Part shown: one piece after another, positions 10,655 through 58,161 of the stretch
How positions within the stretch are numbered: position 1 is the stretch's first letter
Layout: the number at the start of each line of letters is the position of its first letter
Source: Streptomyces morookaense
GTDB taxonomy: Bacteria; Actinomycetota; Actinomycetes; Streptomycetales; Streptomycetaceae
Direction of reading: 5' to 3'
Length of the DNA stretch: 64,000 nucleotides
NCBI RefSeq assembly: GCF_013030945.1
Contig: NZ_JABBXF010000016.1
Span: 124,001 to 188,000 of the forward strand
Position numbers and translations under genes: made by a program
The notes under the pieces: generated by a model
The model's input: only the letters and a program-made list of their open reading frames with translations
What the model was told of the DNA's origin: nothing
Databases searched by the model: none

Positions 10655-12010
10655 TCACGTGTCCCGGACGCCCGCGGCCTTGTGCAGCACCTCGGCCAGG
10701 TCCGCCGACTGGGCGGCGGGCCGGAGGGCGTCGGCGGGCAGCGGGGTGTAGTCGTCGGCGTCGTACGAGCCGGAGCCGTGCAGGACGACCTCGTCGGCGC
10801 GGACCAGTCCGCGCTCGACCGCCAGCAGGGTGCCGGTCACCACCATCACCAGCGACCATTCCCGCAACTTCCGTGGATCCGCGGGCAGTTGCACGTCCGC
10901 CTGCGCCACCAGGGCGCGGACCTGGGCGTAACGGCCGAGGCACTCGTGGAGGGAGACCACGATGCCGCTGCCGCCCTGCTCCCGGATCAGCGCGCTCATG
11001 CGCGGCGCGGTGGCCGGCCGCTCGGTGTAGAAGGTGGGGTCGATGCTCTCGCGGGGGTCGAAGGCGGCCGCGGGGAACACCGGGTTGGCGTTCTGGACGT
11101 ACAGGCCGCTCACCGGGTGCCGGCGGTACGGGGGCGACGCGGCGCCGGCGTACAGGTCCTGCACCATGTCCGGGGTCCGCAGGTGCTGGACGAGGAGATA
11201 GCCGGGCGGGTCGTCCCGCGCGCCCGGCTCCGCGGCGAGGAGCCGGGTGCCCAGGTGGTGGCCGAACAGCCCGAAGGCGCTGGAGACGGCATGCGAGTGC
11301 CAGCGGATCCTGCCCTCGGGCAGCGGGAGGAACTCGGCCTCGTAGAAGGCCCGTACGGTGTCCGCTGCACGGTAGTTGTCGAGGTCGAGCGTATGCCAGA
11401 TATGCACTCCGGCCGCCCGCGCGAGCTCCGCCGCACAGGTTTCGGCGGCCTCCTGCGCCAGGGCCTTCACTGCGGCACCGGAACCGTCGTGCACGACGAC
11501 GGGGTTGCGCTCGCGCAGTCCGGGATCGGCGGCCAGACGGGAGTGCCACACCTTGCCGGCGGACTCCCGGGGGACGACACAGGCGATGCGCAGCTGGTCG
11601 CGGGTGACGAGGCCGGCGTCGACGGCGCGCAGCACCGCGTCGCGCAGGGCGGTGGCCTTGTTCGCCGACGACGGGGTGACGAGCATCAGCTGCTCCCCCG
11701 TCTCGCGGATGTGGCGCACGGCGCGCGCCACGATGACCAGGGAGGCGAAGGTCTTGGTGGTGCGGGTGGCCGGGTTGCGCATGAGGTCGAGGAGGACGAG
11801 CCGCACGCCGTGGTGCGTGCCGAGGGCGGCCGAGGCGAGCCCGGAGACGGAGAGGAACTCCCTTACGGAGTCGTCGAGTTGTGGCAGTCGCTGCTCCGGC
11901 GTGCCGTCGCCCGCCGTGCCGTGCTCGCGGACGTGGTCGAGCGCCGACTGGATCCGGTCGTAGTACCGCGCGATCGCATTGTCCAGAACAGCTCGCCTGC
12001 GTGGCACCAT
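10655..12010 (-). CDS. conserved protein of unknown function (DUF6002-like?), first gene of operon
   Basis: A 451-residue cytosolic protein without signal or membrane segment. I cannot place it firmly. It resembles actinobacterial proteins I recall as DUF6002. A segment LVTPSSANKATALRDAVLRA near residue 130 recalls the phosphate/PLP loops of fold-type II PLP enzymes (serine, asparagine and lysine in one loop), but no full signature is present. ATG 12010 follows a GGAAGGACGGA ribosome site. As the first gene of a run with F420 oxidoreductase, methyltransferase, acyltransferase and ATP-grasp genes, it is likely an enzyme of that pathway. Confidence 0.72.
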   Translation of the reverse strand: MVPRRRAVLDNAIARYYDRIQSALDHVREHGTAGDGTPEQRLPQLDDSVREFLSVSGLASAALGTHHGVRLVLLDLMRNPATRTTKTFASLVIVARAVRHIRETGEQLMLVTPSSANKATALRDAVLRAVDAGLVTRDQLRIACVVPRESAGKVWHSRLAADPGLRERNPVVVHDGSGAAVKALAQEAAETCAAELARAAGVHIWHTLDLDNYRAADTVRAFYEAEFLPLPEGRIRWHSHAVSSAFGLFGHHLGTRLLAAEPGARDDPPGYLLVQHLRTPDMVQDLYAGAASPPYRRHPVSGLYVQNANPVFPAAAFDPRESIDPTFYTERPATAPRMSALIREQGGSGIVVSLHECLGRYAQVRALVAQADVQLPADPRKLREWSLVMVVTGTLLAVERGLVRADEVVLHGSGSYDADDYTPLPADALRPAAQSADLAEVLHKAAGVRDT

Positions 12011-43136: not shown

Positions 43137-44324
43137 CTACTGCTTCCCGTACCGCGACCGTCCCACCGCCGCCGCCACCGTCAGCGGCACCGTCAGGACC
43201 GCCGCGACGGTGAACAGGGGCCCGTAGTGGTGCGCCCCGGCCGCGCCGGCCGAGATGGCGCTGGCCACTGCGCTGCCGACGTAGAGGGCCACGCCGAACA
43301 TCGCCACACCGGTCGCCCGGGCCGTCGCCGACAGGCCGGTCGCCCACGACTGGACCGTGGAGTGCATGAACGACCAGCCGCCGCCCAGCAGCAGGGCCGT
43401 CACCACGAGCGCCGGCACCGACTGGCTGACCGCCGCGACCGCGTAGGCGGCGGCCATCTGCACGCCGCCCGCCACGATCAGCCGGACCGGACCCCACTGG
43501 CCCACCAGGCGCTTGACCCACTGGGCGGCGGACATCGAGCCCACGCCGTAGAGCGCGGACACCGCACCGGCGAGTGCGGTCGGCACGCCCCGTGCCTCCA
43601 GCGCCGGGGCGATGTAGGTCAGGAAGCCCAGCAGCACCGCGCCCTCCAGGGCGGCCACGGCCATGACGTACCACTGCCAGCCCGACCGCAGCACGTCCCG
43701 CATCGGCGCCAACAGCGAGCCGACAGGCTCCCGTTCGGGCTCCTCCAGCCGGCGCAGGGCGAACACGAGGTACAGCGCGAGCAGGCCCGGCAGGGCGAAC
43801 ACCACGCGCCAGCTGACGTACAGAGCCACCACTCCGGCCACCACGGTGGCCACGGCCGTGCCCAGGGCGAAGGCCGTCATCAGCGAGCTCAGCGGGCGTT
43901 GCCGCACCGCCGCGGGGACGGTGTCGCCGACATAGGTCAGCGAGGCGGCGATCGAGGCCGCGAAGAAGGCCCCGGCGACGGCCCGCGCCACGATCAGCAC
44001 CGGCGCGTCGGGCGCCGCCGCCGAGCAGAACGCGGCAACGGCCGCTCCCGCGAGGGAGAACCGCATCACCCGCACCCTCCCCAGCCGGTCGCTGGCCACC
44101 CCCCACACCGGCTGCATGAGCCCGTAGCAGAGGTAGTAACCGCTGGCCGCGAGGACCACGGTCGAGAGGGACGCGCCGAGGTGGGTGCCGATGAGCACGA
44201 GCATCGGTGCAATGCAGAAACGGTCGAAGTTGCTGACGAATCCGGCGGCGCTCAGCATCCGGAGCGACTGCTCGGGCAGCCCGGTTGCGGGAGGCGCGGA
44301 AACGGGGGACGCGACAGTAGTCAT
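43137..44324 (-). CDS. MFS transporter
   Basis: A 395-residue transporter with about 12 hydrophobic segments. It carries the MFS loop GVASDRLGRVRVMRF near 80 and the pattern RAVAGAFFAASIAASLTYVGD in segment 4, as in drug efflux proteins of the DHA1 group. ATG 44324. It diverges from an XRE/MmyB-type regulator with an inverted repeat between them, so the two probably form an inducible efflux pair. Confidence 0.9.
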   Translation of the reverse strand: MTTVASPVSAPPATGLPEQSLRMLSAAGFVSNFDRFCIAPMLVLIGTHLGASLSTVVLAASGYYLCYGLMQPVWGVASDRLGRVRVMRFSLAGAAVAAFCSAAAPDAPVLIVARAVAGAFFAASIAASLTYVGDTVPAAVRQRPLSSLMTAFALGTAVATVVAGVVALYVSWRVVFALPGLLALYLVFALRRLEEPEREPVGSLLAPMRDVLRSGWQWYVMAVAALEGAVLLGFLTYIAPALEARGVPTALAGAVSALYGVGSMSAAQWVKRLVGQWGPVRLIVAGGVQMAAAYAVAAVSQSVPALVVTALLLGGGWSFMHSTVQSWATGLSATARATGVAMFGVALYVGSAVASAISAGAAGAHHYGPLFTVAAVLTVPLTVAAAVGRSRYGKQ

Positions 44325-44449: not shown

Positions 44450-45277
44450 ATGGACACCACGACGCGCACGCCGCGTCAGGAGCTCGGGGCCTTCCTGCGC
44501 TCCCGCCGGGAGCGGCTCTCCCCCGCCGACGTGGGTCTGCCGGGCTCGCCGCGGCGGCGCACCCCCGGGCTGCGCCGGGGCGAGGTGGCCGGGCTGGCCG
44601 GGATCAGCAGTTCCTGGTACGCGTGGCTGGAGCAGGGCCGGGTGCGCACCTCGGAGCAGGTGCTGCGCGCGGTGGCGCGGGCGCTGCTGCTGGACGCGGA
44701 CGAGACGGCGCACGTGCTGTCGTTCACCGAGGACGCCCCGGAGGCCGGGGCGGCGGCGCCGGGCTGGGTCTCGCGGAACCTGCTGTCGCTGGTGGAGGCG
44801 ACGGACCCCAACCCGGCGGTGGTGATCGACCCGCACTGGGACCTGCTGGCGTGGAACGCCGGCTACGCGGCGCTGCTCACCGACCCGGCGCGGCTGCCTC
44901 CGAAGCAGCGCAATCTGCTGTGGCTGGTGTTCCGCTGGCCGCCGAGCCGGACGCTGCTGGCGCAGTGGGAGCCCGAAGCCCGCAGTCTGCTGGGCCAGTT
45001 CCGGTCGCACGCGGCGCGGCATCCCGGGGACGGACGGTACGCCGAGATCGTCGAGGAGCTGCTGGCCGATCCGGAGGCGGCCCGCTGGTACGGGCAGCGG
45101 GAGACGGCGGCGTTCCACCCGGCGGTGCGGCACTTCCGCCATCCGGTGGCGGGCGATCTGCATCTGCGGTACGTGAAGCTGGCGGCCGTCGACGAGCCCG
45201 GCCACCACTTCCTGGCCTATGTGCCGGACGACCCGGCGACGGCAACGGCCGTACGGCGGCTGGCCGGAGAGACGTGA
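44450..45277 (+). CDS. XRE-family regulator with MmyB-like ligand domain
   Basis: A 275-residue regulator. The N-terminal XRE HTH spans about 10-80 (LGAFLRSRRERLSPADVGLP, VAGLAGISSSWYAWLEQGR), joined to a C-terminal MmyB-like (MLTR) ligand domain with VVIDPHWDLLAWNAGYAALL and AVRHFRHPVAGDLHL. Members bind fatty-acid-like ligands. Several are paired with a divergent transporter or dehydrogenase, as here with an MFS pump and at 60552 with an alcohol dehydrogenase. ATG 44450. Confidence 0.92.
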   Translation: MDTTTRTPRQELGAFLRSRRERLSPADVGLPGSPRRRTPGLRRGEVAGLAGISSSWYAWLEQGRVRTSEQVLRAVARALLLDADETAHVLSFTEDAPEAGAAAPGWVSRNLLSLVEATDPNPAVVIDPHWDLLAWNAGYAALLTDPARLPPKQRNLLWLVFRWPPSRTLLAQWEPEARSLLGQFRSHAARHPGDGRYAEIVEELLADPEAARWYGQRETAAFHPAVRHFRHPVAGDLHLRYVKLAAVDEPGHHFLAYVPDDPATATAVRRLAGET

Positions 45278-45329: not shown

Positions 45330-46430
45330 TCAGCTGGTGAGCACGGCCTTCATCACCGATCCGGCGGCGACCGCCGCCATCGCCTCGGCGTGCTGCTCCA
45401 GCGGGTACGCCGTCACCAGCCCCGCGAGGTCGAACCGGGCGGCCAGCGTCGGCAACAGCCGTACGTACTCGGTGAGATGGGCTCCGGTGAACGCCCAGGA
45501 GCCGATCACGTCGAGCTGGCGGTGGACGATCTGGTGCGGGTTGAGCAGGGTGTCGCCCGCGTCGGAGTACTGGCCGATGACCAGGTACGAGCCGCCGCGG
45601 CGGGCCAGGGTGAGGCCCTGGGCGACGGCGGCGGGCACCCCGGCGCACTCGATGACGAGGTCCGCCCCGGCGCCGCCGGTGGCGTCGCGCACCTCCTGCC
45701 GAACGGCGTCCTGTCCCCCGGCGATGTCGATGTGCACGTCGCCGATACCGGCCTTGGCGGCCAGGGCCAGCCGTTCGGCGGGGCCGCCGACGAGGATCAC
45801 CTTGGCGGCGCCCGCGAGCTGGGCGAAGGCCGCCGCCGCGAGGCCGACGGGGCCGCTGCCCTGGACCACGACGGTCTCGCCGAGCCGGACGGGCCGGCGC
45901 TCGAAGAGGGCGTGGACCACGGTGGGCCCGGCGCAGGCCAGCGACATCGCGGCCAGCGGGTCGACGCCCTCGGCCGCCTTGACGACGGTGGTGCCGGGCT
46001 GCAGCACGATGTGGTCGGCCCACGAGCCGGACAGCCCGGCCCCTTCCGTCACCGGGCGGTTGACGCCGTAGGTGCGGCGGTTCTCGCACAGGGTGGGTTC
46101 CCGGTGCAGCCGGCAGGGCGGGCACTCGCCGCAGGCGATGGACGAGGCCCACATCACCGCGTCGCCCTCGGCCAGCGGTGCGCCGGTGGCGTCGCGGTGC
46201 TCCCCGGCGCCGAGTTCACGGATGACGCCGTAGCCCTCGTGCCCCAGGACGAGCGGGGTGGGGATGGGCAGGTGGCCCTGCTGGAGGTGCAGGTCGGTGC
46301 CGCAGATGCCGCCGTAGCCGCAGGCCACGATCATGCCCCCGGCGGGGGCCTGCGGGATACCGAACTCGCGCAGGGCGAGCGGCGCGTTGAACTCCTCCAG
46401 GACCACGGCCTTTCCGGTGCGCGCGGTCAT
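45330..46430 (-). CDS. zinc-dependent alcohol dehydrogenase (MDR family), last gene of operon
   Basis: A 366-residue medium-chain dehydrogenase. The catalytic zinc Cys is in GGICGTDLHL near 42, the His-Glu pair in LGHEGYGVIREL near 66, the structural zinc Cys set in CGECPPCRLHREPTLC near 100, and the nucleotide loop GSGPVGLAAAAFAQL near 185. It interconverts an alcohol and an aldehyde or ketone with NAD(P). It overlaps the PhyH gene (ATGA). Likely finishes or recycles the product made on the carrier protein. Confidence 0.9.
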   Translation of the reverse strand: MTARTGKAVVLEEFNAPLALREFGIPQAPAGGMIVACGYGGICGTDLHLQQGHLPIPTPLVLGHEGYGVIRELGAGEHRDATGAPLAEGDAVMWASSIACGECPPCRLHREPTLCENRRTYGVNRPVTEGAGLSGSWADHIVLQPGTTVVKAAEGVDPLAAMSLACAGPTVVHALFERRPVRLGETVVVQGSGPVGLAAAAFAQLAGAAKVILVGGPAERLALAAKAGIGDVHIDIAGGQDAVRQEVRDATGGAGADLVIECAGVPAAVAQGLTLARRGGSYLVIGQYSDAGDTLLNPHQIVHRQLDVIGSWAFTGAHLTEYVRLLPTLAARFDLAGLVTAYPLEQHAEAMAAVAAGSVMKAVLTS

Positions 46431-47239
46431 GCCTTCACCCCCTGGAGGGCGTCGAGGAAGGGCTCGGACAACGGGCGCAGCGGCACGCTGTCGCGGCAGA
46501 CGACGTACTCGGGGCGGGGTGTGCCGGACCAGCTGGGCAGGTTGGTGACGTCGTTGTAGGTGGCGATGAGCAGGCGGCGGGCGAACGGGGACATGTTCGG
46601 CGCGGAGCCGTGCACGATCTCCGGGGAGAAGAACACCACCGATCCGGCCGGTCCCTTGGGGCTGGTCATGCCGTACCGGTCGACGTGCTCGGCGAGCTGG
46701 GCGGGGGTCAGGGCGATGTCGTCGGGGTCGAGGTGCTGATCCGAGCGGGCGTCGGCCTTGCGGCCGTCGCGCACCATGCCGTTGCGGTGGGAGCCGGGCA
46801 GGAAGATGACCGGCCCGTTGAACTCGGTGACGTCGTCGAGGAACACGCCGATGTTGACCTGCCGGGGTGCGGGCAGGGCGTCGGCGAGCCGCCAGGCGAG
46901 GTAGTCCTGGTGCCAGGCCCACTTGTCGCCGCCGAAGGCCGGCTTGGCGTTGATCTTGAACTGGTAGACGTAGACGTCGTCGGTGAGCAGCTGGCGGACG
47001 GGGCCGAGCACGCGGGGGTCGCGGATCAGTCCGGCGTACTCCGCCTGCCGGTGGTGGGAGGCGTAGACGGCGCGGACCTCCTCGCCCGTCTCCTCGGTGA
47101 CGAGGTGGGGGCCGGGGACGGTGCAGTCGCGGGCGAAGGCCTCGCGCAGGGCCGTCACCTCGCGCGGATCCAGCAGGGACTCGATGAGGAGGAAGCCGTT
47201 GTCGTGGTAGTGGTCGAGCTGCTCCTGGGTCAGGTGCAT
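46427..47239 (-). CDS. phytanoyl-CoA dioxygenase (PhyH) family Fe(II)/2-oxoglutarate oxygenase
   Basis: A 270-residue oxygenase with the facial triad WAWHQDYLAW (His-x-Asp near 108-110) and a distal His in EIVHGSAPNM near 215, followed by Arg in FARRLL for 2-oxoglutarate. Enzymes of this family hydroxylate or halogenate small amino-acid-like substrates, sometimes free and sometimes carrier-bound. ATG 47239 is chosen because GGAG lies 9 bp before it. ATG 47254 has no ribosome site. Part of the ten-gene operon. Confidence 0.9.
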   Translation of the reverse strand: MHLTQEQLDHYHDNGFLLIESLLDPREVTALREAFARDCTVPGPHLVTEETGEEVRAVYASHHRQAEYAGLIRDPRVLGPVRQLLTDDVYVYQFKINAKPAFGGDKWAWHQDYLAWRLADALPAPRQVNIGVFLDDVTEFNGPVIFLPGSHRNGMVRDGRKADARSDQHLDPDDIALTPAQLAEHVDRYGMTSPKGPAGSVVFFSPEIVHGSAPNMSPFARRLLIATYNDVTNLPSWSGTPRPEYVVCRDSVPLRPLSEPFLDALQGVKA

Positions 47240-47286
47240 GGTGTAGTGCTCCATGGTGTGTAGGGGAGTTCGCGGGCGGGCCCTGA

Positions 47287-48024
47287 TCAGCCCATGAAGT
47301 TGCCGCCGTCCACGATCAGTTGCTGACCGGTGAGGTAGGCGCTGCGGGAGGTGACGAGGAACTCCAGGGCGTCGGCGATGTCCCGGGGCGTGCCGATCCG
47401 GCCCGCGGGGATGGTGGCGAGGACGGCCGCGCGCCGGTCCGGGTCGTCCAGCCGGTAGCGTTCGGTGACTTCGGGGGTGTCGGTGAAGCCGGGGATCAGG
47501 GCGTTGACCCGGATGTGCGGGGCCAGTTCGAGGGCCATGCACTTGGTGAGCTGCAGCAGTCCCGCCTTGCTGGCACAGTAGTTCGCGCCGTTGGCCCGGG
47601 GCCGGATGGCGGTGGTGGCGCCGATGTTGACGATGCTGCCGCCGCCGGCCCCGATCATGGCGGGGGCCAGCGCCCGGACGAGGTGGAAGGGTGCGGAGAG
47701 GTTGGTGGCGAGGACGTCGTCCCAGTCCTCGCCGGTGAGGGAGAGGAAGGGCCGGTCGCGGTTGACGCCGGCGTTGTTGACCAGGACGGCGGGCGGGCCG
47801 TCCGTGGCGAGGATCTCCGCGCAGACGGCCCGGATCTCCGCCGGCCGCGCCAGGTCGGCCCGGAGGGTGCGGAGTTGTCCGGCACCCTCCTTCTCGGCCC
47901 GGCGGGCGGCCTGTTCGTCGGTGCGGTAGAGGGCGGTCACGCGGTGGCCCAGTGCGCACAGGCGCAGGGCGAGCTCCAGGCCGATGCCGCGTGTGCCGCC
48001 GCTCACCACGGCGGTCGGCGTCAT
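47287..48024 (-). CDS. short-chain dehydrogenase/reductase (FabG-like)
   Basis: A 245-residue SDR with the nucleotide motif [15 protein letters not shown] at the start, the [10 protein letters not shown] strand near 88, and the catalytic Ser/Tyr/Lys set [12 protein letters not shown]...NYCASKAG near 135-155 (Thr or Ala where Ser is usual, to be checked). [13 protein letters not shown] and [15 protein letters not shown] are FabG-like. It probably reduces a beta-keto or oxidises a beta-hydroxy group. ATG overlaps the panD stop (ATGA). Confidence 0.9.
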
Positions 48025-48437
48025 CCTTCGAGGATGTCGCCGCGCTTGAGGCCCGAGTCCGCGGGGACGTCCGCGGGGTCGGTGCCCAGGGTTTTGACGG
48101 CGTTGTGCTCGTCGACGAAGACCACGCGCGGGTCCATGATCTTGGCCTCCTCGTCCGTCACGGAGGCGTAGGCGATGAGGATGACGAGGTCGCCGGGGCT
48201 GATGAGGCGGGCCGCCGCGCCGTTGATGCCGATCACGCCGGAGTCGCGGGGGCCTTCGATGACGTAGGTGGACAGGCGGGCGCCGTTGTCGATGTCGACG
48301 ATGTCGACCTTCTCGCCGGGTAGCAGGTCGGCGGCCTCCATCAGGTCGGCGCTGACGGTCACCGAGCCCACGTAGTGCAGATCGGCCTGGGTGACGGTGG
48401 CGCGGTGGATCTTCGACTTCATCATGGTGCGGTACAT
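48021..48437 (-). CDS. panD: aspartate 1-decarboxylase proenzyme
   Basis: A 138-residue PanD. The N-terminus [20 protein letters not shown] includes the self-cleavage Gly-Ser pair (YVGSVT near residues 23-26), and [20 protein letters not shown] is also conserved. Cleavage at that Ser makes the pyruvoyl group that decarboxylates L-aspartate to beta-alanine. The housekeeping panD of Streptomyces normally sits with pantothenate or lysine genes. Here it is embedded in an oxidative carrier-protein operon, so it is likely a dedicated copy feeding beta-alanine to the pathway. Confidence 0.93.
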
Positions 48438-48476
48438 GGTTCGACCTCGAATCGATGGAAGGGGAAGGGGGGTTGG

Positions 48477-49013
48477 TCACGCCTGCCAGGTGGCATAGCG
48501 GCGTCTGCCGTAGAGCAGGGGTGCGGGGCCGGGGCCGTCGGAGGCGTCGGTGCGGATGACCTCGCCGAGCACGATGGTGTGGTCGCCGGCCCGGTCCAGG
48601 CGTACGACGCGGCACTCGGCGACGGTGTGGGCGTCGTCGGGCAGCAGCGGCAGCCCGGTCTCGGGGGACGGTTCCCACGGCACCGCGGAGAAACGTTCCG
48701 CGGTGCGGCCCGCGAAGGCCTCGGCCGCGCGGCGTCCGGCGCCGTGCAGGAGGTTGACGGCGAACGCCCCGCGTTCGGCGATCACCGGCAGCGTCCTGCT
48801 CGTGTTCGCCGCGCACACCAGCAGCAGCGGAGGATCGAGGGAGACGCTGCACCAGGCGGTGCAGGTGAATCCGTGCGGGTCGCCCAGGGCGTCGGTGGTG
48901 GTGATGACGGCGACGCCGCCGGGATGGGAGCCCATCAGCGCGCGGAACGCGTCGGGCGTCACCGTGGGTACGGTCTCGACGGGGGCGGTTTCGATGGAGG
49001 ACACGGGGCTCAC
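48477..49013 (-). CDS. flavin reductase (HpaC-like)
   Basis: A 178-residue flavin-reductase-domain protein with PDAFRALMGSHPGGVAVIT, then HGFTCTAWCSVSLDPPLLLV and a C-terminal GRRRYATWQA. It supplies reduced FMN or FAD to a partner oxygenase. GTG 49013 overlaps the stop of the acyl-CoA-dehydrogenase-fold gene (GTGA), which points to that protein as the oxygenase partner, as in the VlmR/VlmH-type two-component systems. Confidence 0.9.
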   Translation of the reverse strand: MSPVSSIETAPVETVPTVTPDAFRALMGSHPGGVAVITTTDALGDPHGFTCTAWCSVSLDPPLLLVCAANTSRTLPVIAERGAFAVNLLHGAGRRAAEAFAGRTAERFSAVPWEPSPETGLPLLPDDAHTVAECRVVRLDRAGDHTIVLGEVIRTDASDGPGPAPLLYGRRRYATWQA

Positions 49014-50209
49014 CACTCGAACGCCTGGGCGTTGTAGAGGTTGACGCCGAGGGCGGCCTTGCCGACGTACTCCAGGCACTCGTCGGGCTTGGCGGGCATC
49101 ACGGCGGAGAAGGCGACCTCGCGGATGTAGCGCTCCAGCGGCTGTGCGCGGCTGACGGCGGCCGAGCCGCAGATGCGCACGGCGTCCTGGGCGAGCGCGG
49201 GGCCGACCTCGCCGACGATGTACTTGGCGGCGTGCACCATGGCATTGGCCTCCAGGCTGCCGCGCTGCGTGTCGACGTGCGCGCCCGCCTCGTGCACCAG
49301 GGCCCGTGCCGCGCGCAGCCGGGCGGACATCCGGCCCAGGTCGCGCTGCATCACCGGGGAGTCGGCACGCTTGGGCGAGGCGGCCACGTAGTCGACGGTG
49401 CAGCGGTAGACGGCCTCCGCGATGCCCAGGTAGGCGCCGGTGTAGCCGGCGGCCATCCAGTGCGGTTCGCGGACGAGCTTGAACAGCGACATCCCCTCGA
49501 CGCCGAGGTAGAGGCGCGAGCGCGGCACGGTGACCTCGTCGAGCTTCATGGCGGCGGTGCTGGTGCCGTACAGCGCCGACAGGTTGTGCACCTCGCCGAA
49601 GCTCACGCCGGGGTCGTCGGCGGCGACGACGAAGTGCGAGACCTCGCTGCTGCCCTCGGTACCCTCGGCGCGGGCGACGACGATGTAGTAGTCGGCGGCG
49701 CCGGCCAGCGAGACGAAGGACTTCTCGCCGTTGAGGACGTAGTGCTGCCCGTCCTCGGAGCGCCGGTAACTGGTGCGGATGCCGCGCAGCTTGGCGCCGG
49801 TGCCCGCCTCGGAGGTGGCGGAGGCGAAGAGCTTGCGGCCGTTCACGACCTCGTCGAACATCCAGGCTCGGAAGGTCTCGGCGGACGGCGGCAGTTGGGT
49901 GCCGACCGACTCGGAGAGCGCGCCGATGACGACGTTGTGCATGTTGTAGCCGAGGGCGGCGGCACCGTTGTGGGCGCCGAGCGCGGCCAGGACGCGGGAG
50001 TAGTCGGCGAAGCCGAGCCCGGCTCCCCCGGCCTCGCGCGGGACGAGCAGGCCGAGCAGGCCGCTCTCGCGGAGGATGCGGTAGGCCTCGTGGCCGTTGT
50101 CGCGCTGGGCGTCGACGTCGGCGGCGAGAGGGGCCAGGATCCGGCCGGTCTCCTCGGCGAGCTTGAGCAGGTCGTCGAGGGTCGCCGGCAGAGTGGCGGT
50201 GGTGGTCAT
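49010..50209 (-). CDS. acyl-CoA-dehydrogenase-fold flavoprotein, possible flavin-dependent oxygenase
   Basis: A 399-residue protein of the acyl-CoA dehydrogenase superfamily: LLGLLVPREAGGAGLGF near 50, FASATSEAGTGAKLRG near 130, KSFVSLAGAADYYIV and RAQPLERYIREVAFSAVMPA near 372. The canonical C-terminal catalytic Glu motif (YEGT) is absent, replaced by SAVMPAKPDEC. That, with a coupled flavin reductase, suggests a two-component hydroxylase or N-hydroxylase rather than a dehydrogenase. ATG 50209 after GGAAGGACC. Confidence 0.85.
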   Translation of the reverse strand: MTTTATLPATLDDLLKLAEETGRILAPLAADVDAQRDNGHEAYRILRESGLLGLLVPREAGGAGLGFADYSRVLAALGAHNGAAALGYNMHNVVIGALSESVGTQLPPSAETFRAWMFDEVVNGRKLFASATSEAGTGAKLRGIRTSYRRSEDGQHYVLNGEKSFVSLAGAADYYIVVARAEGTEGSSEVSHFVVAADDPGVSFGEVHNLSALYGTSTAAMKLDEVTVPRSRLYLGVEGMSLFKLVREPHWMAAGYTGAYLGIAEAVYRCTVDYVAASPKRADSPVMQRDLGRMSARLRAARALVHEAGAHVDTQRGSLEANAMVHAAKYIVGEVGPALAQDAVRICGSAAVSRAQPLERYIREVAFSAVMPAKPDECLEYVGKAALGVNLYNAQAFEW

Positions 50210-50225
50210 GGGGTCCTTCCTCGTG

Positions 50226-51386
50226 TCAGTTCTCGACCGGCAGGCCGAACTGGCGGGCGACACCGACGCGCAGCAGGTCGTTGTGGCCCGCGTAGACATG
50301 GGCCGCCATCGGGCTGTGCAGGTCGGCGGTCAGACCGGATCCGGGGAGGAAGCCGCGGACGCCGGCGAGCGCGGTGGCGTGCTCGCTGAGGCGTACGTAG
50401 TCCTCGGCAACCGAGATCTTGGTGAGGGCCGCCTCGGCGGCCAGCTGCCGGGCAGGTGTTCCGGCGTCGAGCCGGGCGGCCATCGCGTAGAGCTGGACGC
50501 GGGAGCGGTGCAGTGCGAGCGCCATGTCGCTGATGCGGGCGGCCACTTGGTGGCTGGCGCCCATGCGGCGGCCGAAGTGCTCGCGGGTTCCGGCCCATTC
50601 GGCGGTGCGCTGCAGGGTGCGGCGCATGGGGCCGAGGGCGTACCCGAGGACGACTGCGCGCTCCCAGGCGGTCGTGGAGGACATCACGGCCAGGCCGGAT
50701 CCCTCCTCGCCGATCAGTGCCGTGGCGGGCAGCCGGGCGCCGTCGAAGACCAGCTCGCCCATGGGGACCGTGGGCAGGGCGGTCTTGTCGAAGGTCTCGC
50801 CGAGGCTCACGCCGGGGGTGTCGACGGGGAAGAGGAAGGCCGAGAGCGCGAACGGCGAACGGCCTTCCGCGGTGCGGGCGAAGACGATGGCCAGGTCGGC
50901 GATGGGCGCGGCGGTGATGAAGGTCTTGGCACCGTCGAGCACATAGCCGTCGCCGTCGCGCCGGGCACGGGTGTCCATGGACAGCGGGTCGCTGCCCGCG
51001 GTGCGTTCGGTGAGGGCGTGGCACAGCATCGTGCGCCCGTCCTGGACGTGGGCGAGGGCCTGCCAGGCCTGCTCGGGGAGCGTGGCGCGCAGCGGGAACT
51101 GCATGCCGAAGAGCTGGGAGGCCAGGGCGTAGCAGATGCCGGGGTCGGCGCCGGCCAGTCCGATGCCCTCGACGGCGGCGAGGGCGCGGGTGACCGGGCC
51201 GGGGTGTTCGCTGCCGGGCGGGTCCATGCGCAGTGCGCCGAGGTCGGCCAGGGCCTGCCACTGGGTGCGGAAGTCCTTGCCCTCGGTCTGCTCCACGGCC
51301 GGCCGGGCCCGTTCGCGCCAGGCGTCGACGAGTTCCTCGGCCGGTGCGGGGCCGGACCGCAGCAGGCGGTCGGTGGGGGTGCTCAC
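50226..51386 (-). CDS. acyl-CoA-dehydrogenase-fold protein, candidate carrier-bound aminoacyl dehydrogenase
   Basis: A 386-residue flavoprotein of the acyl-CoA dehydrogenase superfamily, with the flavin-side TAGSDPLSM and KTFITAAPIADLAIVFAR segments and the C-terminal YAGHNDLLRVG where YEGT is normal (Glu missing there). A Glu at about 242 (WERAVVLGYALG) occupies the helix used as catalytic base in isovaleryl-CoA dehydrogenase and prolyl-carrier dehydrogenases. GTG 51386 overlaps the carrier protein stop, so it likely oxidises the aminoacyl group carried by that protein. Confidence 0.86.
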   Translation of the reverse strand: MSTPTDRLLRSGPAPAEELVDAWRERARPAVEQTEGKDFRTQWQALADLGALRMDPPGSEHPGPVTRALAAVEGIGLAGADPGICYALASQLFGMQFPLRATLPEQAWQALAHVQDGRTMLCHALTERTAGSDPLSMDTRARRDGDGYVLDGAKTFITAAPIADLAIVFARTAEGRSPFALSAFLFPVDTPGVSLGETFDKTALPTVPMGELVFDGARLPATALIGEEGSGLAVMSSTTAWERAVVLGYALGPMRRTLQRTAEWAGTREHFGRRMGASHQVAARISDMALALHRSRVQLYAMAARLDAGTPARQLAAEAALTKISVAEDYVRLSEHATALAGVRGFLPGSGLTADLHSPMAAHVYAGHNDLLRVGVARQFGLPVEN

Positions 51387-51646
51387 TTGCGGGCCCCGCC
51401 GGTGAGGTCCTCGATGGCGGTCCACAGGGCCTTGGGGCTGCGGAAGTTGGCGGCGACGATCTCGGTCTCGGGGAGCACGATGCCGGCCTGCTTGTCCAGG
51501 GCGGAGACGATCTCCATGATGGCCAGCGAGTCCAGCAGGCCGAGTTCGAGGAGGGGGGTGTCGGCGGTCAGGCTCTGCGGGTCCTCGCCGCGGGCCCAGG
51601 TGATCTTGCTGCTGATGAGGGTGCAGAGCTCTTCGACGCTGTTCAT
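51383..51646 (-). CDS. stand-alone acyl/peptidyl carrier protein
   Basis: An 87-residue carrier protein with the phosphopantetheine site LLELGLLDSLAIMEIV (Ser in DSL near 40). Charge pattern and the alpha-helix II sequence are like discrete PCPs. It overlaps both neighbours (ATGA with the adenylating enzyme, GTGA with the dehydrogenase), so production is balanced. It needs a PPTase such as the one at 3485-4180. Confidence 0.92.
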   Translation of the reverse strand: MNSVEELCTLISSKITWARGEDPQSLTADTPLLELGLLDSLAIMEIVSALDKQAGIVLPETEIVAANFRSPKALWTAIEDLTGGARK

Positions 51647-53286
51647 GTGCGGTTCTCCTCAAGGGTGTGGGAGGTGGGGCGGGGGGTGCCGTCAGGGGTG
51701 TCGGCGAGGGTGCTCAGGGCGCGCCGGTCGACCTTGCCGCTGGTGGTGGTGGGCAGCGAGGCGACGGGGACGACCCGGTCGGGCAGCATGCGCTTGGGCA
51801 GCAGGCCGCGCAGTTCGGCGAGGAGCTCGCGCTCGCCCGCGTCGGTCAGGGCGTAGGCCCAGATCTCGCCCGCGTGGTCGCCGCCGTCCTTGGCGACGAC
51901 GGCCGCGGTGGAGACCTGGGGCAGGTCGAGGACGGCGCTCTCCACGTCGAGCAGGTCGATGCGGTGGCCGCGCCGTTTGACCTGCGAGTCGCGGCGGCCG
52001 CGCAGGAAGACGCGCCCGTCGGGGGTGATCCGGCCGATGTCGCCGCTGGCGTAGGCGCGGCGGGGTGCGCCGTCGCGGAAGGCCACGGTGACGGTGGGGT
52101 CGGTGAGTTCGCCGTTGCGCAGGTAGCCCTGGAAGACGGTGGGTCCGGCGATGTGGATCTCGCCTTCGCCGTCGGTGGGCCGGCCGTCCTCGTCCAGGAC
52201 CTCGATGTCGACGCCGCCGATGCCGCGGCCGATGGTCAGTTCCTGGTCGGCGGTCCAGTCGCGCGGCATCAGCCAGTAGGTGCAGGCGTTGGTCTCGGTG
52301 GGCCCGTAGAGGTTGTAGAAGGGCACGTCGCCCAGCAGTTCGAGGTACTCCTCCAGCAGCTGGGGCGCGAAGGCCTCGCCGCCGAAGAAGGCCACGCGCA
52401 GGGTCGGCGGTACCGCATCGGCGAACCCGCCCTGCTGGAGCATGTTGTGGTAGAGGGACGGGACGGCCATGAAGGCCGTGATCCGCTGCTCGTTGAGCCA
52501 GTTCACCACGTCGCGCGGGAAGGCGCGCAGCATGTCCGGCATGAGCACCGCACAGGCTCCGGCGGCGGCCGCGCCGTACAGGTCGAAAGTGGTCAGGTCG
52601 AAGGTGAGGGCGGCCTGCGAGCCGATCCTGTCGTGCTCGGTGAGGCCGAACTCGGCGGCGGCCCACCGGGCGTAGTGGGCGACGTTGGCGTGCGAGAGCA
52701 GGACGCCCTTGGGCCAGCCGGTGCTGCCGGAGGTGAACAGGATGTACCCGCCGCGGTCGGCCGGCGCGGGCAGCGGGGCCGGGCGGCCGTCCCCGTCCAG
52801 GACGCGCAGCCGGTGCAGTCCGTGCTCCAGCGGCTCCGCGTCCGGCTCGGCGCCGTCGCGGGCCTCGGCCGCGGCCTTGCGGCACACGGGCAGGGCCCGG
52901 TCGGTGGTGAGCAGCAGCGAGATGCCGGCGTTGCGCACCATCCGGGCCGTGCGGGCCGGGGGGTCGGCGGTGTCGAGGGGGGCGACGACCGCACCGGCCC
53001 GCAGGGCGGCGTAGAGGGCGATCACGGTGGAGGGGGTCTTGGGGGCGTGGACGCCGACGCGTTCGCCGGGGACGAGGCCGTCGTCGGCGAGCCGGGCGGC
53101 CAACGCGTCGACGGCGCGGTCGAGTTCGGCGTACGTCCAGGTCTCGCCGGCACCGGACAGGGCGGGGCGGTCGGGGTACCGGCGGGCGGAACGGGCCAGG
53201 AGACCGTCCAGGCGCAGGGTCTCGGTCCCGGTGGTGCCGTCGGTGACGGCGGGGGCGGCGGGGGCGGTGGGGGCGGTGGGGGTCAC
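51643..53286 (-). CDS. stand-alone amino-acid adenylating enzyme (AMP ligase)
   Basis: A 547-residue A-domain protein with core motifs A3 FTSGSTGWPKG near 190, A4/A5 LTFDLTTFDLYG and NLYGPTETNACTYW, A8 GRRDSQVKRRGHRID near 425, and A10 TTTSGKVDRRAL with the catalytic Lys near 520. The D of FDLTTFD sits where alpha-amino-group recognition occurs in Phe and Pro A-domains. The TETNACTYW stretch is like prolyl ligases of pyrrole pathways. It activates an amino acid and loads it on the downstream carrier protein. Whether the acid is proline, beta-alanine or another cannot be fixed by eye. Confidence 0.93.
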   Translation of the reverse strand: MTPTAPTAPAAPAVTDGTTGTETLRLDGLLARSARRYPDRPALSGAGETWTYAELDRAVDALAARLADDGLVPGERVGVHAPKTPSTVIALYAALRAGAVVAPLDTADPPARTARMVRNAGISLLLTTDRALPVCRKAAAEARDGAEPDAEPLEHGLHRLRVLDGDGRPAPLPAPADRGGYILFTSGSTGWPKGVLLSHANVAHYARWAAAEFGLTEHDRIGSQAALTFDLTTFDLYGAAAAGACAVLMPDMLRAFPRDVVNWLNEQRITAFMAVPSLYHNMLQQGGFADAVPPTLRVAFFGGEAFAPQLLEEYLELLGDVPFYNLYGPTETNACTYWLMPRDWTADQELTIGRGIGGVDIEVLDEDGRPTDGEGEIHIAGPTVFQGYLRNGELTDPTVTVAFRDGAPRRAYASGDIGRITPDGRVFLRGRRDSQVKRRGHRIDLLDVESAVLDLPQVSTAAVVAKDGGDHAGEIWAYALTDAGERELLAELRGLLPKRMLPDRVVPVASLPTTTSGKVDRRALSTLADTPDGTPRPTSHTLEENRT

Positions 53287-54080
53287 TGCAGGGTCTCCGC
53301 GGGGGTCGGGCGGCCGGGGACAGCGTGTTCGTCGTGTTCGTCGAGGAAGGCGCAGGCGGCGTCGATGACGAGGTCGGGGCAGACCAGGTGGGGGTAGTGG
53401 TCGACACCTTCCGGCACGATCCGCCGCACGGGGCCGCGCAGGGCGCGCTCGGCGGAGTCGAGCTGGTCGAGGGTGCCGTACTCGTCCTGATCGCCCTGGA
53501 TCAGCAGGACCGGCGCGGTGACGTCCAGGTCCTTCTCGATGTTCCAGTCGCGGAACCCGTCCGAGAGCCAGACCCGGCTCCAGCTGCCGAAGACGCCCTG
53601 CGGGTCGTCGTGCACCAGGGCCATCTTGCGTTGCAGCGGCCCCGCTTCGAAGGACGCGCGGGCCGCCTCGATGCCCTTGCGGTTCTGCTCCTCGAAGTAC
53701 AGGTGCGGGCCGAGGGCGACCACGGCGGTGGCGGGGCGGACCGAGGCGTACAGCAGCCCGATGGAGGCGCCGTCGCTGTGCCCGACCAGGACCGGGTTGC
53801 CGATACCGAGCAGGTCGAGCAGCTCGGGCAGGTCCTCCTGGGCGTGCTCGTGCATATAGCGGGGGGTGCGGGGGCGCACGGCGGGGCCCGAACCGCCCTG
53901 ACCGAGGCGGGAGTACACCAGGGCGCGGCGCCCGGTGGCCGCGGCGAGGCGGGCGGGGAAGCGTCCCCAGCTCGCGATGCAGCCGAGCCCGCCGTGCAGG
54001 AAGACGAGCGGCGCCAGGTCGGGGTCGCCGTCGAGGAGAACATGCTCGACGGGGCCGTTTCGGGTCTCGGCTATCGGCAC
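53283..54080 (-). CDS. alpha/beta hydrolase, first gene of ten-gene operon
   Basis: A 265-residue hydrolase with an oxyanion segment VFLHGGLGCIASW near 32, nucleophile elbow VGHSDGASIG near 105, acid in LLIQGDQDEYGTL near 205 and His in VPEGVDHYPHL near 235. GTG 54080 follows GAAAGG. It overlaps the adenylating gene by GTGA. It could serve as thioesterase releasing the product, or as an ester or amide former. It is related to epoxide-hydrolase-like enzymes. Confidence 0.88.
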   Translation of the reverse strand: MPIAETRNGPVEHVLLDGDPDLAPLVFLHGGLGCIASWGRFPARLAAATGRRALVYSRLGQGGSGPAVRPRTPRYMHEHAQEDLPELLDLLGIGNPVLVGHSDGASIGLLYASVRPATAVVALGPHLYFEEQNRKGIEAARASFEAGPLQRKMALVHDDPQGVFGSWSRVWLSDGFRDWNIEKDLDVTAPVLLIQGDQDEYGTLDQLDSAERALRGPVRRIVPEGVDHYPHLVCPDLVIDAACAFLDEHDEHAVPGRPTPAETLQ

Positions 54081-54362: not shown

Positions 54363-55256
54363 ATGGATGTCGACCTCCGCCATCTCCGCAACTTCCTGGC
54401 CGTGGCCGAGGAGGGCGGCTTCACGGCCGCCGCCCGGCGCCTGCACCTCGCCCAGCCGACCCTGACCCGGAGCATCCGGACCCTGGAAGAAGCCCTGGGA
54501 GTCCGCCTGTTCGACCGCACGACCCGCAGGACCGCACTCACCGACAAGGGCCGGGAGCTGCGCAGCTCCCTCGTCCCGCTGCTGCATCGGCTCGACACCG
54601 CACTCACCGGGCTGCGCAAGGGCGAATCCCTGCGCGTCGGCTTCAACTGGGGGCTGCCCGAGGGGCTTTCGGGCACGGCGGCCCGGTTCGGGGACGAGAC
54701 CGGGGTGGCGGTGGAGTTCGTCCGCAGCGACACCCCGCTGGCCGGCCTGGACACGGGCACCGTCGACGTCGCGCTGCTGCGCGCCGAACCGCTGCCGAAA
54801 GGCCTGCGCGGGGTCCTGTTGTGCGAGGACACCCGCGTCGCCGCCGTCCCCGGCCACTGGCCGCTGGCGGCCCGCTCCCGGCTGGGCTGGGCCGAACTGG
54901 CGGATCTGCCGCTGGTCGTCAACACCGTCAGCGGCGTCACCTTCCCCGCCATGTGGCCGGCGGGCCGGCGCCCCACGGTGGGCGCCGAGTGCCGCAACTA
55001 CGACGAGTGGCTGGAGAAGGTGGCCGCCGGCCTGGGCGTGGGCTCCGCCCCCGCGGCCGCCGCCCGGCGCCATCTCCATCCCGCGGTCCGGATGATCCCC
55101 CTCGACGACGCCCCCGTCGTCCGCGCCTACCTCGCCTATCCCTCGCACGGCGCGCACCCGCAGGCGGCACGGTTCGCCGACGAGGCGTGGCGCGCGGCCG
55201 AGGCCCTGGCGACGAAGGGCCTCACCGCCGACGAGCAGCCGGCCCGGGGCTGTTGA
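54363..55256 (+). CDS. LysR-family transcriptional regulator
   Basis: A 297-residue LysR regulator. The winged HTH at residues 4-62 reads LRHLRNFLAVAEEGGFTAAA...LAQPTLTRSIRTLEEALGVRLF, followed by a periplasmic-binding-like effector domain. ATG 54363 is preceded by GGAG. It diverges from the ten-gene operon and is most likely its activator, perhaps with a pathway intermediate as co-inducer. Its stop is 6 bp from the convergent GNAT gene. Confidence 0.92.
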   Translation: MDVDLRHLRNFLAVAEEGGFTAAARRLHLAQPTLTRSIRTLEEALGVRLFDRTTRRTALTDKGRELRSSLVPLLHRLDTALTGLRKGESLRVGFNWGLPEGLSGTAARFGDETGVAVEFVRSDTPLAGLDTGTVDVALLRAEPLPKGLRGVLLCEDTRVAAVPGHWPLAARSRLGWAELADLPLVVNTVSGVTFPAMWPAGRRPTVGAECRNYDEWLEKVAAGLGVGSAPAAAARRHLHPAVRMIPLDDAPVVRAYLAYPSHGAHPQAARFADEAWRAAEALATKGLTADEQPARGC

Positions 55257-57855: not shown

Positions 57856-58161
57856 ATGGAAACCGTCTACCAGATGATGGCCACAACCCTCAGCGAGCAC
57901 TTCGGCGTCCCCGAGGACCACATCCACCCGGACGCCACCTTCGAGGAGCTCGACGTCGACTCCCTCGCCCGGGCCGAGATGCTCGCCGTCGTCGAGGGCC
58001 GGCTGAAGGTGACCCTCGATCAGGAACCCGGCGGCCTCACGCTCGGCGAGGCCGCCGCCCGCATCGAGCGGCTGCTGGCCGGCGGCACCGGGGGCGCGGC
58101 GACGGCCGCGGCACCCCCGCCGGGAACGGGGCCCGCTTCGCTGCCCGGCCCTCTCCTGTGA
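57856..58161 (+). CDS. acyl carrier protein
   Basis: A 101-residue carrier protein with the phosphopantetheine Ser in ELDVDSLARAEMLAVV near 38 and an Ala/Pro-rich tail. FAS/PKS-type ACP. ATG 57856 after GAGGAGAGCGG. Its stop overlaps the start of a ketosynthase stub (GTGA), so it once belonged to a fatty-acid or type II PKS-like gene set that has been deleted. Whether it is still used is unclear. Confidence 0.88.
   Translation: METVYQMMATTLSEHFGVPEDHIHPDATFEELDVDSLARAEMLAVVEGRLKVTLDQEPGGLTLGEAAARIERLLAGGTGGAATAAAPPPGTGPASLPGPLL

Follow-up and report, generated by a model that had tools for sequence, protein, structure and literature searches.

A Streptomyces operon predicted to couple a leucine-to-methylproline cassette to an N-hydroxypyrrole pathway

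The window analysed here is a 64,000-nucleotide stretch of Streptomyces morookaense (assembly GCF_013030945.1, contig NZ_JABBXF010000016.1, positions 124,001 to 188,000), in which a run of ten minus-strand genes occupies positions 45330–54080. The genes encode, in order of transcription, an alpha/beta hydrolase, a stand-alone adenylation enzyme (A-domain), a carrier protein, two flavoproteins with the acyl-CoA dehydrogenase (ACAD) fold, termed ACAD1 and ACAD2, a flavin reductase (FRed), the aspartate 1-decarboxylase PanD, a short-chain dehydrogenase/reductase (SDR), a PhyH-family oxygenase and a zinc-dependent alcohol dehydrogenase (ADH). Coordinates, Pfam and NCBIfam bear out this order and these families, and with them the original prediction of a single operon joined mostly by 4-bp overlaps. 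Such overlaps are present at six of the nine junctions, including that between PhyH and ADH, and the other three are spaced by +16, +47 and +51 bp. We interpret the operon as a variant thiotemplated N-hydroxypyrrole pathway that incorporates a leucine-to-methylproline cassette and whose A-domain pocket is altered to match. Genes lie on the minus strand unless stated otherwise; L and G numbers are our handles for loci and genomes.

The first six genes form the core. The hydrolase (53283–54080; PF00561) bears a GHSDG elbow, the A-domain (51643–53286; PF00501) has the pocket code DLFMAFLACK, and the free-standing carrier (51383–51646; PF00550) has its attachment site at Ser40. ACAD1 (50226–51386) is nearest to the prolyl-carrier dehydrogenases; its best NCBIfam model is the RedW-type L-prolyl-PCP (peptidyl carrier protein) dehydrogenase, at 238.7 bits, under the model's cut-off, and the catalytic Glu242 is present in all 45 aligned rows. 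In ACAD2 (49010–50209) the place of the catalytic glutamate is taken by Met252, as in 44 of 44 aligned rows, and DnmZ is among its PDB sequence matches. FRed (48477–49013; PF01613) is predicted to supply ACAD2. As originally recognised, these genes include the central trio of a proline-to-pyrrole type pathway (A-domain, carrier and dehydrogenase), and the run holds no condensation or ketosynthase gene, in keeping with the small product expected.

In chalkophomycin biosynthesis, ChmG, which has methionine for glutamate, N-oxygenates prolyl-S-ACP (acyl carrier protein), and ChmH, which keeps the glutamate, then oxidises the ring (PMC11177257). Release by ChmF, which is reported to hydrolyse, yields N-hydroxypyrrole-2-carboxylic acid (PMC11177257), and the cluster also encodes a flavin reductase, ChmR (PMC11085572). 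Because the Glu/Met pattern and the counterpart of ChmR match the chm cluster, the hydrolase, A-domain, carrier, ACAD1, ACAD2 and FRed of the window correspond to the ChmF-J-I-H-G-R set, and ACAD2 is by analogy a predicted ChmG-like N-oxygenase. As in ChmFGHIJ-type cassettes, the A-domain and free carrier are adjacent and the hydrolase lies in the same operon. The second ACAD-fold protein, with its methionine, and FRed set the operon apart from the single-ACAD pathways (RedW, PigA, PltE). The original view that no described pathway accommodates the extra oxygenase, PhyH and reductases is not supported: the second ACAD, FRed and hydrolase fit the N-hydroxypyrrole route described in 2024 (PMC11177257), and PhyH, ADH and SDR fit the 4-methylproline cassette (PMC5676206). 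Crooke et al. (PMC11177257) sort such clusters from 97 organisms into four classes, and that of the present operon may be among them. Related sets of A-domain, PCP, ACAD1, ACAD2 and hydrolase, with a proline code, occur in Pseudomonas and Chromobacterium (L060, L062, L063, L064, L068, L071). At L166, an ACAD2-like protein (63%) stands beside an A-domain with a proline-type code, with no clear separate ACAD1 or carrier match there. L065 and L066 look chm-like, with a stand-alone adenylase and ABC transporters, and L065 also has a 1152-residue nonribosomal peptide synthetase (NRPS).

The last three genes make up the cassette. The PhyH protein (46427–47239), an iron/2-oxoglutarate (Fe/2OG) oxygenase, has as its best PDB match the leucine hydroxylase GriE (5nch; E 8.8e-101), and the GriE residues His110, Asp112 and His210 of the iron triad, together with Arg242, are kept in 23 of 23 PhyH rows; a leucine 5-hydroxylase is predicted. 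The ADH (45330–46430; PF08240/PF00107) is predicted to oxidise 5-hydroxyleucine in the role of GriF, and the SDR (47287–48024), judged by its gene neighbourhood, to act as a 3-methyl-pyrroline-5-carboxylate reductase in the role of GriH. GriE and GriF turn leucine into 3-methyl-pyrroline-5-carboxylate, and griH is dispensable (PMC5676206).

PhyH matches were found at 31 places in 28 of 392 Streptomyces genomes, eight of them being the operon. Fifteen of the 23 non-operon places, those at >=51% identity, were examined: an ADH homologue adjoins PhyH in 12 of the 15 (50–83% identity), an SDR lies directly upstream of PhyH-ADH in five (70–79%), and PanD is nearby in one. Since the SDR stands directly before PhyH-ADH outside the operon too, it is probably part of the methylproline cassette. 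L052 has lost it and L029 carries a broken copy, which suits a dispensable step because ProC could take over. By analogy with GriE/GriF, then, SDR-PhyH-ADH is a putative 4-methylproline cassette. Condensation-domain NRPSs adjoin the non-operon cassette in L146, L152 and L153. The SDR-PhyH-ADH cassettes at L146, L147, L151, L152 and L153, most of them beside NRPS-type genes, are candidates for 4-methylproline peptides; L151 additionally carries PanD and an A-PCP-reductase protein.

The A-domain pocket differs accordingly. The ten-residue code, whose extraction had been recommended as a check, is a proline-type code altered at two places, DLFMAFLACK as against DLFY..VCK in proline-type relatives, and the window's A-domain thereby lacks the proline pocket of ChmFGHIJ-type cassettes. 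Code positions follow the GrsA numbering. Position 278 is Met, Val or Ile (17, 4 and 2 rows) and position 330 is Ala in all 23 A-domain rows that come with the cassette, whereas both are larger, Tyr and Val, in all 21 rows without it. The Tyr/Val pocket also occurs in two of two further rows and at L034, where the A-domain adjoins a RedW-like gene. Smaller side chains at 278 and 330 would leave room for a methyl group. Beta-alanine was considered as the loaded amino acid and rejected, given that Asp235 is kept in an otherwise proline-type pocket.

Genomes were scanned with two peptide patterns, which gave 70 stretches, 49 relatives and 48 loci, all counts being lower bounds. Thirty-six of these loci have an ACAD2 at 49–89% identity, and 12, at 24–27%, were set aside; L165, on the same contig as L052, was left out of the counts, L033 contributed no A-domain row and L063 no ACAD2 row. 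PanD, PhyH and ADH occur together in 17 of the 36 (the full type), and none of the three occurs in the other 19. The full type was set by gene content before the trees, and the clade tested on the A-domain came from the ACAD2 tree. In L021, L037 and L046, which lack PanD-SDR-PhyH-ADH, both ACAD genes branch from within the full type, and a single full-type clade is rejected on the ACAD1 and ACAD2 trees (p 0.005 and 0.008). The A-domains of the same three loci, on the other hand, fall outside the full type; the ACAD2 topology forced on the A-domain is rejected (p 1.9e-5), and still so with 70 pocket-flanking columns removed (p 0.0013). Because the A-domain tree conflicts with the ACAD trees, we infer that the A-domain followed the precursor supply and not its neighbours. 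This gene-tree conflict is stronger evidence of coupling between the two halves than the pocket counts are.

Taken together, gene content, catalytic residues, co-occurrence, the pocket change and the gene-tree conflict are the evidence in hand, and from the sequences we consider the likely product of the operon to be 1-hydroxy-4-methylpyrrole-2-carboxylic acid, or one of its simple derivatives, made from L-leucine. In the proposed pathway, PhyH would hydroxylate leucine at C5, and ADH would oxidise the 5-hydroxyleucine to an aldehyde that closes to 3-methyl-pyrroline-5-carboxylate; the SDR, or the host's ProC, would reduce this to 4-methylproline. The A-domain, with a pocket enlarged for the extra methyl, would load 4-methylproline onto the free carrier. 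ACAD2 with FRed would then hydroxylate the ring nitrogen, and ACAD1 would oxidise the ring to the N-hydroxypyrrole. The hydrolase would release the acid or pass it to a small acceptor, for which PanD probably supplies beta-alanine (the weakest step), and the neighbouring MFS transporter would export the product.

Known N-hydroxypyrroles offer candidate products. The rare compounds named in PMC11177257 are hormaomycin, glycerinopyrin, the pyranonigrins and the surugapyrroles. L-Leucine is given there as one N-hydroxypyrrole origin, with the glycerinopyrin paper cited first and the pyranonigrin papers after, and from this reference order we infer that the leucine origin refers to glycerinopyrin, the compound of S. 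violaceus. The source of surugapyrroles A and B is Streptomyces sp. USF-6280; a different title in the reference list of PMC7397340 names this strain S. coelicoflavus. The operon is complete in S. coelicoflavus NBRC 15399 (L050), whose genome has one strong ACAD2 match (1e-212; the next is 7e-38). The original prediction took an exact match to a characterised cluster as its refutation; in the open-access literature searched, neither a characterised cluster with the exact gene set nor a gene cluster for glycerinopyrin or the surugapyrroles was found.

Among described systems, the core is most like those of chalkophomycin (chmFGHIJ, chmR; PMC11177257, PMC11085572) and hormaomycin (hrmKLMN), which share the free A-domain, carrier, Glu-ACAD, Met-ACAD, hydrolase and flavin reductase; here, however, the A-domain pocket is enlarged, and the operon incorporates PanD and a leucine-to-methylproline cassette and is not followed by an NRPS. 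Griselimycin griE-griF-griH (PMC5676206) likewise has an Fe/2OG leucine hydroxylase followed by a zinc dehydrogenase; its reductase GriH is dispensable, as that of the operon may also be, but is of the F420 type, whereas the reductase here is an SDR, and here the precursor would go to a free A-PCP pair and not to an NRPS. The RedW, PigA, PltE and CloN3 pathways share the A-domain, carrier and Glu-bearing prolyl-carrier dehydrogenase; they differ in having one ACAD and no N-oxygenase, and in handing the pyrrole to an assembly line.

PanD (48021–48437, with a possible start at 48425; TIGR00223, 155.1 bits against a cut-off of 106) was originally singled out as a misfit, and that part of the original puzzle stands. 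All operons examined have PanD together with the methyl cassette, and in the genome scan it is present in 17 of 17 full-type loci as against none of the 19 other ACAD2-bearing loci. The G24-S25 self-cleavage site and K9, R54, T57, Y58, N72, A74 and A75 are kept in all 23 operon copies; 20 other PanD copies keep the same residues, with single exceptions among them. PanD genes number from 0 to 5 per genome (14 genomes), several of them near NRPS genes. The window's genome carries a second PanD besides that of the operon, G064 has the operon copy alone, and G175 and G058 have none. Three of the six other PanD loci fetched adjoin adenylation-domain genes. The operon copies do not form one clade in the PanD tree; despite this, they may be of single origin. 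PanD places noted across Streptomyces genomes include L001 and L103–L109.

Several observations weigh against the proposed acid. Compared by fold, the ACAD2 model (mean pLDDT 75.5) matches isobutyryl-CoA dehydrogenase and a flavin monooxygenase equally, at Z 36, so that the comparison fails to distinguish the two enzyme types, and neither KijD3 nor DnmZ appears among the 50 rows listed. The split in the pocket follows a single A-domain clade, so the rows do not count as independent, and the count alone is weak. The conserved ChmG-type set is also present where the substrate is likely to be proline, and because of this the 4-methyl assignment leans on PhyH/ADH and the pocket. The acid itself would not require PanD, and the operon has no amide ligase. 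As for the candidate compounds, the surugapyrroles come from a strain other than NBRC 15399, and the link to surugapyrroles and glycerinopyrin is a proposal. If both ACADs were dehydrogenases, as the fold and the top NCBIfam matches of ACAD2 would allow, the product would be 4-methylpyrrole-2-carboxylate with no N-hydroxylation. We regard this as improbable: single-ACAD pyrrole pathways need no second ACAD, and the methionine invariant across 44 rows, as in the characterised ChmG, comes with a flavin reductase in the same operon. Equally doubtful is that the A-domain loads another amino acid, such as leucine or 5-hydroxyleucine, with ring closure on the carrier. An enlarged pocket alone does not name its substrate, but the remaining pocket residues are as in proline-type relatives, and SDR-PhyH-ADH occurs beside NRPSs that lack the free A-PCP-ACAD set.

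The remaining alternatives concern PanD. Beta-alanine supply is the preferred, though unproven, role, because the catalytic residues are kept, the operon copy is the only one in G064 and A-domain genes lie beside other PanD loci. Were beta-alanine the acceptor and the hydrolase an acyltransferase, the product would be N-(1-hydroxy-4-methylpyrrole-2-carbonyl)-beta-alanine. The intact catalytic residues, the strict distribution between full-type and other loci, the sole copy in G064 and the three adenylation-linked loci, as expected for beta-alanine supply, all favour such a conjugate; the missing amide ligase, the homologous hydrolase in loci without PanD and the reported hydrolysis by ChmF (PMC11177257) speak against it, and we hold it tentatively, at somewhat short of an even chance. 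On the other hand, the active site of Mycobacterium tuberculosis PanD binds pyrazinoic acid, itself a small heteroaromatic carboxylic acid, which inhibits the enzyme via Arg54, Ala74 and Ala75 (PMC6969166). The operon might thus make a pyrazinoic-acid-like PanD inhibitor directed at competitors, with the embedded PanD protecting the producer and loci that lost the methyl cassette losing PanD too. The second PanD of the window's genome would suit such self-protection. However, the contacts Arg54, Ala74, Ala75 and His21 are unchanged in 23 of 23 copies, unlike a resistant target copy; G064 has no PanD apart from the operon copy; and no PanD adjoins the loci expected to make the unmethylated acid, one of whose hosts, G175, has none at all. 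An unchanged extra PanD could still protect by dose, but we give self-protection little credence.

The operon recurs as a unit. A check of gene neighbourhoods, as originally advised, found the genes linked in the same order in nine other loci (L019, L020, L022–L024, L026, L028–L030; ~62–85% identity), with only a partial SDR in L029, a recurrence far beyond chance. The ten genes do lie within the limits first drawn, 45330–54080, but those limits are too narrow, since the conserved unit comprises 13 genes. A helix-turn-helix (HTH) transcriptional regulator (44450–45277, plus strand), convergent with the operon, is kept in full-type loci and carries this annotation in L019 and L020. The MFS transporter, a probable exporter (43137–44324, with a possible start at 44258), holds the same place in most full-type loci at ~76–79% identity and is annotated as MFS in L019 and L020. 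The predicted divergent LysR regulator is present (54330 or 54363 to 55256, plus strand) and is likewise annotated in L019 and L020. No conserved regulatory motif is evident between LysR and the hydrolase in a 24-row alignment.

Plasmids of Streptomyces sp. NBC_00826 and NBC_01369 (L019, L020) carry all 13 genes in the same order. The two copies are near-identical, most proteins having a common accession, and they share NUDIX hydrolase and DegT-type aminotransferase genes further downstream; their upstream flanks, which contain transposase genes, are unlike each other. A nearby NRPS as required user was rejected, since the 37.5-kb stretches examined for L019 and L020 show no annotated NRPS in a gene table that is incomplete. 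ACAD1 matches occur in 15 of the 392 Streptomyces genomes: eight with the full operon, the window's own genome included, four with core sets that lack PanD-SDR-PhyH-ADH, two with NRPS-linked sets and one with only a RedW-like relative. The operon probably represents a transferable, free-standing cluster for a small N-hydroxypyrrole. In S. lilacinus (L039) the PanD frame continues into the SDR, and the record has unknown bases at the PanD start; the read-through may be an assembly fault.

Elsewhere on the contig, an NRPS/polyketide synthase region (C68:27445–118827, before the window start at C68:124001), with ~13 carrier-domain hits in large open frames, lies ~50 kb from the operon. A weak carrier-protein match (57883–58020, plus strand; E 8.9e-7) falls within a small predicted open reading frame (57856–58161) near a Mut7-C RNase gene and a lipase, and a DUF6002 protein of unknown function, a very strong match at 638 bits, lies at 10655–12010.

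The operon provides a genetic candidate for leucine-derived N-hydroxypyrroles known only from chemistry, glycerinopyrin having been reported in 1991. It also presents a case of a precursor cassette and an A-domain pocket changing together, and offers an A-domain predicted to take 4-methylproline. Finally, it raises the question of an aspartate decarboxylase within a pathway to a small heteroaromatic acid.

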